The translations under genes were made by a program, and so were the position numbers. Below, one piece after another: positions 4,050 to 23,334 of a stretch of DNA of 64,000 bases (position 1 is the stretch's first letter; the number at the start of each line of letters is the position of its first letter). The notes below the pieces were generated by a model. That model had not been told where the DNA came from, made no database searches, and worked only from the letters and a program-made list of their open reading frames with translations. The stretch comes from Marivirga arenosa. GTDB taxonomy: Bacteria; Bacteroidota; Bacteroidia; Cytophagales; Cyclobacteriaceae. The stretch covers positions 3,643,001 to 3,707,000 of the forward strand of contig NZ_CP129970.2 in the NCBI RefSeq assembly GCF_030503895.2, given 5' to 3'.

Positions 4050-4168
4050 GAAGAGGGCGGGTTGGAGGACAAAACATCGGACCAGAGAAGCAGCTTTGTT
4101 TTTTCGTGACTTTTTGTTTCCTTTTGATCCCTGTCCCGACTAATTCGGGAAAGAAAAAAGAAAAAGTA
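4050..4168 (+). repeat. Degenerate hairpin repeat, sixth copy
   Basis: This 220-bp intergenic region carries gggcgggttggaggacaaaac, then gaccag...cagctttgttttttcgtgac, then a long T-rich/A-rich hairpin (4109-4166) whose loop includes gtcccgactaattcggga. The order and wording parallel the reverse complement of the element at 19374-19465 (gacaaaaca, ggccagcg, cagctttgttttgtc, then the ctttttg hairpin). I read it as a decayed copy of the same family, 15 kb away from the cluster. Confidence 0.6.
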
Positions 4169-18280: not shown

Positions 18281-18808
18281 TCAACTTTCCCAAAGCAATA
18301 AACCCGCCTCAGCAGTTGGAACTTGTCCTACAAACTCTGTGGGCTCCATAAATAAAAAGCGAATTTTACGATCAATTCTCTTTTCGGCTATGCCGGTCAT
18401 ATTGGCGATGTATTCATGATTAAACTTATTACCAACTAATAGGAAGTCTATTATTCCGCCATCTATTCCTTTCGCATAATCACCAATCAAATATACCTTT
18501 TCTAATTGCCCTACTTTCCCAATGATCTGCTCTATTACGCGGTCTATTCCAATATATTTCTTGATAATGTTGTGAATATCTTCAAAAAGCGGGTGCTTTG
18601 TATTCGCCTGATATAATTTTTTATTGCCTTCGATATCTGCCTTCAACATCCCAGCCTCCTCAAATTTATTGAGCTCTAGGCGAATGGCATTGGTGCTTTC
18701 TCCGAATTCCCCTTCCAAGGAACGCAAATAGCTCTTAGTCTGCGCATTCAAGAAGAACTTAAGCAGAAGTTTAATACGGGTTTTAGAAGTGATGAGGGTG
18801 TCGAGCAA
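18281..18808 (-). CDS. Winged-helix transcriptional regulator with degenerate nucleotidyltransferase-like C-terminus
   Basis: This 175-residue protein stands first in the polysaccharide operon region. Residues about 1-75 look like an ArsR-type winged helix (SKTRIKLLLKFFLNAQTKSY, then a recognition helix around ESTNAIRLELNKFEEAGMLK, and a wing with NKKLYQANTKHPLF). The C-terminal part has VYLIGDYAKGIDGGIIDFLL, which parallels the minimal nucleotidyltransferase motif hG[GS]...DhDh. The Ser is replaced by Asp and the first Asp of the pair by Ile, so catalysis is unlikely. It probably regulates the polysaccharide genes. Similar small regulators are common near Bacteroidota polysaccharide loci. 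Confidence 0.7.
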   Translation of the reverse strand: MLDTLITSKTRIKLLLKFFLNAQTKSYLRSLEGEFGESTNAIRLELNKFEEAGMLKADIEGNKKLYQANTKHPLFEDIHNIIKKYIGIDRVIEQIIGKVGQLEKVYLIGDYAKGIDGGIIDFLLVGNKFNHEYIANMTGIAEKRIDRKIRFLFMEPTEFVGQVPTAEAGLLLWES

Positions 18809-19123: not shown

Positions 19124-19153
19124 AACACCCCTATAATCCCCTCAAGGGGATAG
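19124..19153. repeat. 30-bp perfect repeat, copy 1 of 3
   Basis: This begins aacacccctataatcccc and ends caaggggatag. It is identical over 30 bases to 20167-20196 and 20710-20739, all in the same orientation. It contains the perfect 16-nt hairpin atcccctcaaggggat. There is no U-run after it, so it is not a classic terminator. Confidence 0.85.
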
Positions 19154-19373
19154 TCTCACACAGTAATATTGGTAACAAATAATTAAGGTATTGTCATCTA
19201 ATAATTAGCCAAAATTTAAATAAAAAACGAGTAAAATAACTACTCAATAATAAAAGTAGTAGATAGATTAAAGAATTGCAATAAGCTAAGGAAAAATTGT
19301 AGGGAAGATGTAAGAGATTATATACATTTAATTATTTTCACAAAGATTAAATCGTTTCATAGACTTACTTTGT

Positions 19374-19465
19374 CTTTTTGCTAGATCAAAAAGAATCAGC
19401 TAGTAAGCGGACAAGCGAAAAAATCATGACAAAACAAAGCTGCTGCGCTGGCCCGCTGTTTTGTC
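19374..19465 (-). repeat. Two-hairpin repeat element A (reverse orientation)
   Basis: Hairpin 1 is ctttttg (19374-19380) with caaaaag (19387-19393) and a 6-nt loop. Hairpin 2 is gacaaaaca (19428-19436) with tgttttgtc (19457-19465), enclosing a loop that holds cgctggcccgc. Its reverse complement resembles element E at 20404-20538, including the words aagcggac.agcgaaaaa and aatcagctagta. With element B it forms an inverted pair spanning 19374-19690. Confidence 0.75.
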
Positions 19466-19559
19466 TTCCCACCCACACGCTTCGAACAAATATATTCCTA
19501 TTAATTTGATTAAATTTCTATGAATTGAATTTAATTCAGATGAAGATTAAAAGATAGCA

Positions 19560-19690
19560 CGACCAAATTTCGCTGCAAACGAAAAAGCGCGTAAGGAAGG
19601 GTGAAATGGCGGGCCAACGTAGGCCTTGAGGGCTGACAGCTTCATTTCACTCAGATTTTTTGCATACTTTTTCATCATTGGAAAAAGTAT
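19560..19690 (+). repeat. Two-hairpin repeat element B
   Basis: Hairpin 2 is gtgaaatg (19601-19608) with catttcac (19643-19650); its loop starts gcgggccaacg. Hairpin 1 is atactttttc (19664-19673) with gaaaaagtat (19681-19690). A preceding cgctgcaaacgaaaaagcg segment is shared with element D. It is the right half of the first composite inverted unit. Confidence 0.75.
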
Positions 19691-19793
19691 TAAGTAAATA
19701 TCAAAACTGTTAAAAGTCTAGCTTAATCGGTAATAAAAGACATTAAACTTAATTTATTCCTTTACTACCCCAAGTAGTTTATACTTGTATTTT

Positions 19794-19879
19794 CTTTTTG
19801 CTAGATCAAAAAGAAAGAAAAAATCATGACAAAAAGATGCTTCCGCGCTGCAATTCAGCTCCCTCCCCGCCTTTTTGTC
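19794..19879 (-). repeat. Two-hairpin repeat element C (reverse orientation)
   Basis: Hairpin 1 is identical to that of element A: ctttttg-ctagat-caaaaag (19794-19813). The aaaaaatcatgacaaaa context is shared as well. Hairpin 2 is gacaaaaag (19828-19836) with ctttttgtc (19871-19879); the stem differs from element A at its inner end but stays perfectly paired. It is the left half of the second composite unit. Confidence 0.75.
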
Positions 19880-19974
19880 CTCCTGCCCGCTTTCTTCTAG
19901 CGATCAATCGTGGTTAAGAAAGCAGTTTTCCCTATAAAATTCCAAATTAGTCACTTCCATTTTTCTGGCTAATT

Positions 19975-20103
19975 CGCCCAACTTTTGCGATAGCGAAAAA
20001 GCGCGAGGCAACGGTGAAATGGCGGGCCAGCGGCGGCCTAGAAGCGTGGAAGCATCATTTCACCTAGATTTTTTGGATACTTTTTTATCAATGAAAAAAG
20101 TAT
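19975..20103 (+). repeat. Two-hairpin repeat element D
   Basis: Hairpin 2 is ggtgaaatg (20013-20021) with catttcacc (20056-20064); its loop starts gcgggccagcggcgg. Hairpin 1 is atactttttt (20077-20086) with aaaaaagtat (20094-20103), which differs from element B at the loop-closing pair on both sides (C-G became T-A). It is the right half of the second composite inverted unit (19794-20103). Confidence 0.75.
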
Positions 20104-20166
20104 TAAGAAGTGAGATACAACAACAAGCTTTTAAATAGGGAAGTCATATAAATGCATTAGAAAATA

Positions 20167-20196
20167 AACACCCCTATAATCCCCTCAAGGGGATAG
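20167..20196. repeat. 30-bp perfect repeat, copy 2 of 3
   Basis: Identical to 19124-19153 over all 30 bases, same orientation, with the same atcccctcaaggggat hairpin. It follows element D by about 60 bp. Confidence 0.85.
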
Positions 20197-20310
20197 TTGC
20201 AGGGATTGATATTATTATGTTGAGAGATAATTTCGCTAAAATTTTTTCTGGAGTGGTATTAAAAGAATTCCATCAAATAATTTACTAGACTAAATATTTA
20301 TTTAAAGTGA

Positions 20311-20356
20311 GATTCCTGCTTCCCGACCTTCAGAACGGGACAGGTTACGCAGGAAT
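20311..20356. repeat. 46-bp palindromic repeat, copy 2
   Basis: This begins gattcctgcttcccgacctt and ends ggttacgcaggaat. It pairs attcctgc with gcaggaat. It differs from the copy at 18159-18204 at six positions, one of which improves the stem. Confidence 0.7.
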
Positions 20357-20403
20357 GAAAGTAGGAACCATCAGCAACAAAAAAACATAGCTAATATCAT
20401 AAT

Positions 20404-20538
20404 TTCCGAAGCATTCGGAAAAGCGGGCTGGACGAAAGTTTAGCGGGCCAGCGCTAGCCTTGTGCTTTGAAGCATTAAACTTTCTTGAATTTTTCGCTGG
20501 TCCGCTTACTAGCTGATTCTTTTTGTTCAAGCAAAAAG
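20404..20538 (+). repeat. Three-hairpin repeat element E
   Basis: A first hairpin ttccgaa-gca-ttcggaa (20404-20420) precedes hairpin 2, gaaagttta (20434-20442) with taaactttc (20476-20484), whose loop starts gcgggccagcg. Hairpin 1 is ctttttg (20519-20525) with caaaaag (20532-20538). The core resembles elements B and D while the stem sequence is completely different, yet perfectly paired. Confidence 0.75.
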
Positions 20539-20709
20539 GAAAAAATCATTTTATTTTCTGTTTTTAATGAGTGCAAAAAGCTTGGAATATATCGAATATA
20601 ATAAGCTAAAGCAAAAGATCCCTGATCAAATCAAGAATGACGCTACTTGCCATTAATATCGTCATTGCTATTAGTAAAAAGTCCAAAAGTTTATAGTTAC
20701 TACTTATAG

Positions 20710-20739
20710 AACACCCCTATAATCCCCTCAAGGGGATAG
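20710..20739. repeat. 30-bp perfect repeat, copy 3 of 3
   Basis: Identical over 30 bases to 19124-19153 and 20167-20196, in the same orientation. Confidence 0.85.
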
Positions 20740-20824
20740 CTATAAAATGTAATATGAATAATGGTTTAACACTGTTAGATTGCTTCATTCCTAGCAAGGA
20801 AGATAATGGCTAATAAAAAAATTT

Positions 20825-20929
20825 AATTCTTAATTCTTAATTCTTAATTCTTAATTCTTAATTCTTAATTCTTAATTCTTAATTCTTAATTCTTAATTCT
20901 TAATTCTTAATTCTTAATTCTTAATTCTT
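20825..20929. repeat. Heptanucleotide tandem repeat, (AATTCTT)x15
   Basis: Fifteen perfect head-to-tail copies of AATTCTT fill 105 bp and end two bases short of the wzc stop codon complement (20932-20934). Each unit reads AAGAATT on the wzc coding strand. Perfect short tandem repeats of this kind change length by slipped-strand mispairing. It lies in the 3' untranslated region of wzc, so length changes would not shift that reading frame. Confidence 0.97.
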
Positions 20930-20931
20930 AA

Positions 20932-23334
20932 TTAACCCTTTCTTCTGAACAATCCTTTACGTTTCTTCAATCTGTCCTCATCATAATAACCATAGCCATA
21001 ACCACCATAGCCCATACCATAAATATATCCTCCATAATAACCATAGCCTCTTCTTCTTAATTGGATATCATTAAAAATGACCGACATCGGTTTTATCTTG
21101 CCTTCATTATAAAGACCATTTACCATATTCAATGCTTGTTTCATACTCACTCCTTGTCTTACAATTAAAAGCGTATGATCTACATGTGGCAATAATTCCA
21201 TAGCATCTGCGACCAAACCGATTGGAGAAGTATCAATAATAATAGCATCAAACTCTTCACGAAGTTTTACCATAAACTCGTTCATCTTGTCACCTGCTAA
21301 TAACTCAGAAGGGTTTGGTGGCACAGCTCCAGCTCCTACGAACCAAAGGTTTTTCGTTTCACCATTAATAACCACTTCATCTTTTTCTGCATAGCCTGCC
21401 AAGTACTCACTTAAACCCCGATCAGGATAAGCTTCAATAAAGTCAGTTAAGTTTGGTTTACGCATATCGGCCCCTATTAGAATAGTCTTTCTACCAGAAG
21501 CCGCTAAAGTATAAGCTAAATTTAGAGAGCAAAAGGTTTTTCCTTCTCCACTCACTGAAGAAGTTACCATAAATGTTTTGGCTTGCTTTTTATCTCTACC
21601 CTGTAAATATTTCATATTAGCTCGCAAAGCTCTGAAAGATTCTGCGACTAAAGATTTAGGTCTATCCTTTACAATGGTATTCGTTTCATCAATTTTGTGG
21701 GCAATATTTCCCAATAAAGGCATATCGGAATTTCTATCTAAATCATCCCTATCCATTATTCGTGGATTAGTAAAATCTTTAATAAAGAAAAAGGCCACTG
21801 GAAGTAACAATCCCATTGCCATCGCTATTAGTAGATTACGCTCCGAATTAGGTCGAACTGGATTATTAGAATAAGAAGGCTCTTCAATTAGTTGATAATC
21901 CGATGTGGCGGAAGCTTTTGAAATAGCCGCTTCAGTTTTACGTTCAATAAAAAGGTCAAATAAATTTTGATTCAATTCAAATAATCTTTTCGCACGATTG
22001 AGTTCTCGCATATCACCCTGTAATTCACTAATCGAACCCATTAAAAAATTACTTCTCCTATTTATTGCGGAAAGTGTATCTCGATTTATTTTCTGGTAGC
22101 TATTTAAAGCTTCGAAAATATTTTTTTCAAGCCTTTTTCTTATGCTATCTTCTCTGTTTACTAAAGGGTTTTTATAATTTTCCTGATTTCTAAAAATCTT
22201 GTCTTTTTGTTTCTGCTGAATATATTGATTGACTAAATCATTTAGCATTGGGGCATCTAACCCAATTAAAGAGGGAGCAAATACTTCAGAAGTTCTATTT
22301 TGCTGTATATATGATTTTAAATAATTATAATAACGCTCTTGTAATAAAACCTCAGCTTTTTGTTGATCTAATTGATTGAGTTTTGAAAATATAGTCTGAC
22401 TTCCTAATGTCAATTCTCTATTTTCCAATTGGAGTTGATCAATTGTTTCCTGAAATTGAACAATTGAGTCAGAAATCATCGCCATCTGTTCATCAATAAA
22501 ATTGATGGTATTCTCCAGATTCTGATTTTTTTCTTTTAACCCTAATTCTTCAACTACCTGATAATAGGTATTCATGAAAAGGATATCCTTTTCAGGAATT
22601 ACACTTTCCATAGCCATATTCAGGATCGCAGACCCTTGCTGTTGCCATGAAATTTTTAACCGATTCTTATACTGACTAACTAGACTTTCTTTTTTATTGA
22701 TTACAAAAAAGTATTTGCCTTGATCAGTTGAGGCTGAAGACCCACCACCTTCTATCACAAATTTCCAATCCCCAATTACATAAGGGGTATTATAATTAAA
22801 ATTCTTCCCCTCTAATTTAGAAGCCCAATCCTGATTTCCCTCAACATTAAATTGAAATTGGTTTTCAGACTTCTTATTAACAAATATTTTTAATCCATAG
22901 GGCACATTATTTCCCATTAGGGTATCAATCACAACTTGATATCCATTCCCACTTTTTTGCTCGGTTGTTTTTATATAACCTTGCGCAAAGTAACTTACTC
23001 TAAAATTTAGTCTGTTGAGAGTTTCCTCTATCTTATCATTTGATTTTAACAGGGGGATTTCCTCATAAACTTCCTGACTTGACCCTAAGTAATATTTTGC
23101 ATCTTCGAGTCCAGGTAAGATTGATTTGTTCTCAGTAAATTTCTTAGTGATAAACTGACCTTTTATAGAATAAACCGGATTTGCATATCGATTGTATAGA
23201 ATCCCTAATGTTGTTGTAAAAGCAAAAAAGAGAATAATAAAAGGCCACCTTCTTAATATCTTAAGCAGATACTTTAGAAAATCTATCGGCTTGTCTTCTT
23301 TTACAGCCTCGTCTTGAAAGTCAAATCCATCCAT
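20932..23334 (-). CDS. wzc: Polysaccharide chain-length determinant / BY-type tyrosine autokinase (Wzc-like)
   Basis: This 800-residue inner-membrane protein controls polymer length and export. Residues about 15-60 hold the Wzz domain start and first membrane helix (WPFIILFFAFTTTLGILY). A long periplasmic coiled-coil region spans roughly 270-470, and a second helix lies near 500-520 (LLIAMAMGLLLPVAFFFI). The cytoplasmic kinase has Walker A VSGEGKTFCSLNLAYTLAAS (about 592-611), A' ILIGADMRKPNL and B AIIIDTSP. The C-terminus is a Tyr/Gly cluster (RRRGYGYYGGYIYGMGYGGY, then GYGYYDEDR) that serves as the autophosphorylation tail. It starts 3 bp after wza, with which it forms an operon. A heptamer repeat follows the stop. 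Confidence 0.94.
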   Translation of the reverse strand: MDGFDFQDEAVKEDKPIDFLKYLLKILRRWPFIILFFAFTTTLGILYNRYANPVYSIKGQFITKKFTENKSILPGLEDAKYYLGSSQEVYEEIPLLKSNDKIEETLNRLNFRVSYFAQGYIKTTEQKSGNGYQVVIDTLMGNNVPYGLKIFVNKKSENQFQFNVEGNQDWASKLEGKNFNYNTPYVIGDWKFVIEGGGSSASTDQGKYFFVINKKESLVSQYKNRLKISWQQQGSAILNMAMESVIPEKDILFMNTYYQVVEELGLKEKNQNLENTINFIDEQMAMISDSIVQFQETIDQLQLENRELTLGSQTIFSKLNQLDQQKAEVLLQERYYNYLKSYIQQNRTSEVFAPSLIGLDAPMLNDLVNQYIQQKQKDKIFRNQENYKNPLVNREDSIRKRLEKNIFEALNSYQKINRDTLSAINRRSNFLMGSISELQGDMRELNRAKRLFELNQNLFDLFIERKTEAAISKASATSDYQLIEEPSYSNNPVRPNSERNLLIAMAMGLLLPVAFFFIKDFTNPRIMDRDDLDRNSDMPLLGNIAHKIDETNTIVKDRPKSLVAESFRALRANMKYLQGRDKKQAKTFMVTSSVSGEGKTFCSLNLAYTLAASGRKTILIGADMRKPNLTDFIEAYPDRGLSEYLAGYAEKDEVVINGETKNLWFVGAGAVPPNPSELLAGDKMNEFMVKLREEFDAIIIDTSPIGLVADAMELLPHVDHTLLIVRQGVSMKQALNMVNGLYNEGKIKPMSVIFNDIQLRRRGYGYYGGYIYGMGYGGYGYGYYDEDRLKKRKGLFRRKG

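Follow-up and report, generated by a model that had tools for sequence, protein, structure and literature searches.

A recurrent two-hairpin repeat of Marivirga arenosa has covarying pairings and lies within MITE-like units in related genomes

Why does a single intergenic region of Marivirga arenosa hold five copies of a repeat whose stems differ in sequence yet pair throughout, and what kind of element are they? The window analyzed here is a 64,000-nucleotide stretch of contig NZ_CP129970.2 (positions 3,643,001 to 3,707,000), and copies A to E all lie in it between an open reading frame that ends at 18808 and one that starts at 20932. The latter gives Wzz, GNVR, and ParA-type Pfam matches, some of them under the Pfam cut-off. 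The copies share a core layout: a first hairpin (HP1) is joined by an A-rich linker to a short foot, whose sequence is complementary to the HP1 loop, and a second hairpin (HP2) follows the foot directly. Five elements with one layout had been proposed in the initial annotation, and both the sequence and a covariance model, R1, confirm A to E at the positions given below.

Copy A, a type I core on the plus strand, occupies 19370–19476 (R1 67.3 bits; DNA fold z -2.59). Its HP1 (19373–19394, loop CTAGAT at 19381–19386) is followed by a 22-nt insert before the A-run (19396–19417), the foot ATCATG (19423–19428), and the HP2 stem, formed by GACAAAACA (19428–19436) and TGTTTTGTC (19457–19465). Copy B is a type II core on the minus strand at 19587–19689 (91.4 bits; z -2.51), with the HP2 stem GTGAAATG at 19601–19608 and 19643–19650 and HP1 at 19664–19690. 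Copy C (type I, plus strand, 19790–19890, 82.6 bits, z -3.41) has the stem GACAAAAAG, the loop CTAGAT, and the foot ATCATG; copy D (type II, minus strand, 20001–20102, 102.8 bits, z -2.29) has GGTGAAATG, CATTGAT, and ATCTAG. Copy E, again type I, lies on the minus strand at 20423–20542 (83.5 bits; z -2.25), with the stem GAAAGTTTA, the loop CTTGAA, the foot TTCAAG, and an insert like that of copy A between HP1 and foot at 20495–20516. The arms of HP2 are fully complementary in all five copies, and the five stems are all different, as had been claimed. A and B (19373–19690) and C and D (19790–20102) form the inverted pairs that had been described, each of a type I and a type II core with 111 bp between the cores and HP1 outermost. 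The HP2 loop string gcgggccagcg, which had been ascribed to every copy, is present in A (as the reverse complement), D, and E, and in B as gcgggccaacg, but copy C does not contain it. The degenerate sixth copy, F (4057–4162, minus strand), is found by model score (51.3 bits; E 7.6e-7 for the whole genome), but an insertion lies within its HP1 and its fold is lost (DNA z +0.41, no better than shuffled sequence).

Partly palindromic short inserts between HP1 and foot, like those at 19396–19417 and 20495–20516, were also seen at loci L106 and L103 (G and L numbers denote the genomes and loci of our collection). The same intergenic region carries a second repeat, AACACCCCTATAATCCCCTCAAGGGGATAG, with 30 identical nucleotides at 19124–19153, 20167–20196, and 20710–20739; a diverged copy is present in the orthologous region of G007. 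About 15 head-to-tail TTAATTC 7-mers occupy 20823–20933, at the 3' end of an 800-aa gene.

Among the 11 copies of the own genome used for the comparison, 98.0% of HP2 cells are paired against 68.8% after shuffling, a value equaled by none of 500 shuffles. Changes on both sides occur at all nine HP2 pairs, which 2 of 500 shuffles equal, and when the partner is slid along the sequence only 33–54% of cells pair. The number of further HP2 pair types in these copies (12) is not above that of shuffles (mean 12.9). On larger sets HP2 is 98.8% paired (56 distinct rows) and 98.5% paired (39 rows), in alignments that are model-fitted and therefore biased toward pairing. Covariation in HP1 was counted alongside that in HP2 as support. 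HP2 pairing is kept across copies and covaries, which bears out the earlier claim of a repeat family with a covarying fold. The z scores for A to E as DNA run from -2.3 to -3.4, and those for RNA of the element strand from -1.5 to -2.6. The lowest-energy fold of copy E, as DNA and as RNA, pairs the HP2 loop with the upstream insert so that HP2 is not formed, and HP1 of copy A is not formed in the RNA fold.

A second pairing links the two hairpins. The foot, which mostly reads NNC[AT][AT]G and most commonly ATCAAG, is complementary to the loop of HP1, for which CTTGAT is a frequent sequence; in most copies a change in one is matched by a change in the other. The scan pattern for HP1 and foot described below fixes both sequences, so its matches were excluded from the loop-foot test. 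A wider parse of alignments A3 and A4 (104 rows, 71 distinct, of which 65 were parsed and 6 were not) shows full complementarity between the end of the loop (its last three bases) and the start of the foot (its first three) in 53 of 65 copies; shuffles give a mean of 22.1 and a maximum of 34, and the rule is broken in the other 12 copies. Seven of 14 distinct loop-foot combinations are complementary, which 3 of 5000 shuffles equal. A narrower parse succeeded for 90 of 96 copies (5 failures and 1 duplicate), of which 64 were kept; 43 of these, of strict form, have a six-base loop (C-x-x-G-N-N, with foot n-n-C-y-y-G). In them all 86 cells at the two variable positions are paired in antiparallel order, against a mean of 57.4 and a maximum of 68 in shuffles. 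The middle bases in 39 six-base cases are TT/AA in 31, TA/AT in 4, AT/TA in 3, and TT/AT in 1, and the seven TA/AT-type cases, perhaps from four lineages, are complementary in crossed order and not antiparallel. By their geometry, the short first loop, the A-rich third loop, and the foot abutting HP2 would fit an H-type pseudoknot, in which the loop-foot contact would lock HP1 onto HP2.

Searched with R1, the 3.94-Mb genome of M. arenosa gives 12 strong matches and one weak match (E 0.036). Six of the strong matches are the window copies, four form a same-strand array at 3,273.6–3,274.6 kb, and the other two stand alone at 3,771.3 and 2,431.5 kb. R1 matches 26 of 59 genomes including this one, with up to 48 matches per genome, and 8 of the 9 genomes of the genus; the same-genus G008 has none, and the orthologous intergenic region of G007 contains none of A to E. 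The covariance model thus found the further copies, in the own and related genomes, on which the initial annotation had staked its family interpretation. Among 198 evenly drawn Bacteroidota genomes, searched with strict filters and 20 candidates scored per genome, R1 matched eight, six of them in the same family, own genome included. A pattern of HP1 (loop TTGAT) and foot ATCAAG matched at least 117 stretches. Among the 80 matches listed, we take 74 to be from Bacteroidota, one from a borderline Aliifodinibius MAG, and five from MAGs outside the phylum, presumably Fusobacteria, Peribacter, Saganbacteria, Melioribacteraceae, and Marinamargulisbacteria; the pattern also occurs in three viral contigs. 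Judged from these pattern matches, the HP1-foot module alone is spread over Bacteroidota, and outside this module there are several kinds of second hairpin. Because R1 reached only 8 of 198 genomes, any phylum-wide claim draws on the pattern scan and not on R1. Same-strand arrays of cores were noticed in other genera at L346 (11911–14730, spacing about 300 bp) and L347 (3715–4850, spacing about 517 bp). The sole Rfam match in the window is a tRNA, and no match at gathering score was obtained in 20 loci, most of them with copies. No name for the family was found in open-licence papers.

In sister genomes of the genus the core lies inside units of 310–440 bp with inverted ends, recognized by 12-bp motifs (CTGTTTTCCTCG for type II and GGCTCCTCATGA for type I). 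G002 carries the type I core in units of about 320 bp, and a second unit type of about 380–440 bp, with the ends CTGTTTTCCTCG and CGAGGAAAACAG, is present in G001, G002, G004, G006, and G007. Two different end pairs carry the core, so the core may be a passenger. Both ends were recognized, with at most 3 mismatches per end, in 28 of 116 copies examined, and in 10 of these 28 units direct repeats of 22–181 bp abut both ends (within 8 bases). They flank 8 of 14 type II units, with lengths of 22, about 60, 71, 88, 102, 130, 159, and 181 bp, the two sides of the approximately 60-bp case being no more than about 72% alike. Among type I units they flank 2 of 14 (22–33 and 37 bp), and no long repeat was seen in the other 12. 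By eye only, target duplications of 6–8 bp (TAATTA, TAGATA, and others) were noted at some type I units.

Flanking direct repeats occur at 33 of 95 copies, whereas control points placed 2 kb away have them at 5 of 139; the count for the copies includes some tandem-array artefacts. The tandem arrays or other repeats at L019, L090, L103, L188 (a tRNA repeat), L201, L226, and L274 and the CCCC repeat of the window were counted, here or in the phylum sample below, but not taken as target duplications. The empty-site evidence comes from one locus and two relatives: at L101, a 62-bp sequence from the left gene's 3' end is doubled (90% alike) in G006 and single in G004 and G005. In the phylum sample the test covered 93 of 129 modules, the rest being too near a contig end; flanking repeats were found at 18 of these 93 loci and at 8 of 148 controls. 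Five look clean by eye, at L224 (63 bp), L250 (109 bp), L267 (78 bp), L204 (113 bp), and L200 (259 bp). Copies A to F have no recognizable unit ends and no target duplication, and the case for mobility of the window copies is therefore drawn from the relatives. The suggestion of a REPIN/MITE-like mobile unit holds in its MITE-like part, given the inverted ends, the target duplications, and the one empty site in relatives, but a REPIN moved by RAYT is not supported.

No mover was found. An IS1634-family transposase was rejected as a candidate, with none over the cut-off of 100 bits in nine genomes of the genus and two weak profile matches (G001, 27.5 bits; G002, 23 bits). The type II end motif has 14 matches in the nine genomes, 12 beside a core and 2 inside long ORFs without a core, and no autonomous element bounded by this motif was found among them. 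Among recurrent ORFs near the module, the two largest groups are present at 12 and 9 of 120 loci. Seven proteins from groups of this kind were scanned, and Pfam gave matches for five (two ABC transporter proteins, one response regulator, one OmpA, and one sigma factor) and nothing for two. The genes that recur beside the module are common ones, ABC transporters and response regulators among them. Two observations favor a REPIN or REP element mobilized by RAYT (TnpA_REP; subclass 2.6 in Bacteroidetes): the repeats are palindromic, intergenic, and sometimes in inverted pairs, with a short sequence at the hairpin foot, and one source describes atypical secondary structures beside subclass 2.6 genes (PMC6006769). 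The initial annotation had advised looking for a RAYT/IS200-type transposase, and linkage was sought in both directions. The 32 Y1 loci, each with up to 1.5 kb of flank, contain a single R1 match (E 0.34), and a Y1 profile that picked up all 5 unused and all 27 left-out Y1 loci detects no Y1 gene among the ORFs of 120 module-bearing loci (884 kb). The closest case among the matches listed is a Y1 gene about 2 kb from a core on contig 134 of G001; the other Y1 matches listed were compared with cores by eye on coordinates only. The own genome's two RAYT-type genes (L026 1581–2129 and L027 2464–3009) adjoin, by eye, other and mutually different palindromes (cctcgtt...aacgagg and gcgagcttcttagctcg). 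RAYT mobilization was rejected on the absence of linkage in these loci, and we consider it extremely unlikely. A SINE-like element, copied via RNA with target-primed reverse transcription that gives target duplications of variable length, would account for a structured single strand and for repeats of 22–181 bp of no fixed length, but not for the inverted DNA ends of the genus units, and it appears to us very doubtful.

The position of the cores among genes bears on two further readings. Only 2 of 98 copies overlap ORFs of at least 110 aa. From 116 copies, less 6 cluster copies, 12 near contig ends, and 12 sharing a region, 86 intergenic regions were classified using mechanical ORFs as genes: both genes are antisense to the element in 34 and sense in 15, and the genes are convergent in 32 and divergent in 5. 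The cores thereby avoid promoter regions, in keeping with an intergenic mobile element. The antisense-to-sense bias (34:15, p 0.009) is not predicted by mobility alone, and it keeps alive a reading in which the core is a transcript-end element, such as a bidirectional terminator or a 3'-end stabilizer, that is selected at gene ends and whose mobility is incidental and old. The excess of convergent over divergent regions points the same way, as do the antisense strand, which reads HP2 and then a T-run, and L346, where nine R1 matches (two weak) are all on the plus strand and the right-hand neighbor is always a minus-strand ORF. The HP2 stems, however, are AT-rich with loops of about 20–35 nt, unlike usual intrinsic terminators, the antisense RNA of A to E folds with z from +0.05 to -2.84, and loop-foot covariation and target duplications are left unexplained; we judge a transcript-end role to be unlikely. 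A gene cluster linked to the core, encoding an excisionase-like HTH protein and a DnaC-like helicase loader, raises instead the idea of a plasmid-like element whose replication or initiator-binding site is the core, with the chromosomal copies as its debris. In six loci from the genus, a core has a 294-aa-type gene on one side and the loader gene on the other, and Marivirga plasmid p1 (NZ_CP129969.1; L319 24577–24965) has three same-strand cores before a DnaC-like loader gene, which runs across the record start; p1 also carries an integrase gene. Loader relatives (E up to 1e-10) occur in only 10 of 59 genomes, however, against 26 of 59 with cores; G007 (27 R1 matches) and G040 (20) carry cores without a loader match, and at the loader loci L141, L142, and L150 no core scores better than E 0.6. 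We find this origin very improbable, and the plasmid-type cluster genes were also rejected as the mover, their distribution being mismatched to that of the cores. Pieces of the 3' end of the loader gene are repeated downstream of it at L020 (3684–3729 and 5922–5999), and similar partial copies occur close to the loader in G003 and G006 and away from it in G005; this suggests insertion at this gene end.

Neighboring cores within 2.5 kb of each other form 15 pairs, 8 of them inverted and 7 on the same strand, and the other copies have no neighbor in the stretch examined; inverted pairing does not appear to be the rule for cores. Taking dnaA as the origin, the counts on the two replication strands among the matches listed are 11:11 in G004, 12:4 in G006, and 6:7 in G000, which gives no consistent bias. 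At L055 of G033 (1501–2776) two inverted cores flank the gene of a 314-aa Schlafen AlbA_2 protein, perhaps as cargo.

The units of the relatives resemble several known systems, with differences from each. Like IS1634 and IS1549 insertions they have inverted ends and long, variable direct repeats, which for those elements measure 8–514 bp and for which, according to the source, no mechanistic model had been proposed (PMC2266710). Unlike them, the repeat unit has no internal gene, has two different end pairs, and comes with no transposase of the family over cut-off in the nine genomes. They share with MITEs a short, gene-less build with inverted ends and target duplications but differ in the long and variable duplications, the conserved covarying internal fold, and the lack of an autonomous parent among the elements found. 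REP and REPIN-RAYT systems likewise consist of intergenic palindromic repeats, some as inverted pairs, whereas here the core is longer, the foot is not of the GTAG type, and no RAYT linkage was seen. IS200/IS605 elements are not known to make target duplications, and the units of the relatives have them. As in IS608 and ISDra2, a sequence at the hairpin foot is complementary to a nearby target-like sequence, and the covariation of loop and foot recalls, by analogy, the guide pairing of that family. The commonest HP1 loop contains the same five bases as TTGAT, given as the IS200/IS605 target in Deinococcus radiodurans (PMC5934647). In the repeat, however, the TTGAT-like loop sits inside a conserved stem of the element, and no linked Y1 gene or consistent replication-strand bias is seen among the matches listed.

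On balance, we think that copies A to F are probably old copies of a non-autonomous, protein-less, MITE-like element that was moved in trans. The enzyme responsible would make widely staggered breaks, and the core, whose predicted function from sequence is that of a recognition structure, would be recognized as a folded single strand of DNA or RNA; the window copies would be inactive remnants of the same element. Whether this extends to a phylum-wide class of mobile elements, with a pseudoknot-like module, a co-evolving loop and foot with partly crossed partners, and a trans-acting enzyme that duplicates tens to hundreds of target bases, is a possibility that we put forward tentatively. The repeat family preserves a natural record of how two short sequences that seemingly recognize each other have changed together, and the loop-foot code is open to mutational testing. 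The family also supplies insertions whose target duplications are long and variable; for this feature no mechanistic model had been proposed, according to PMC2266710.
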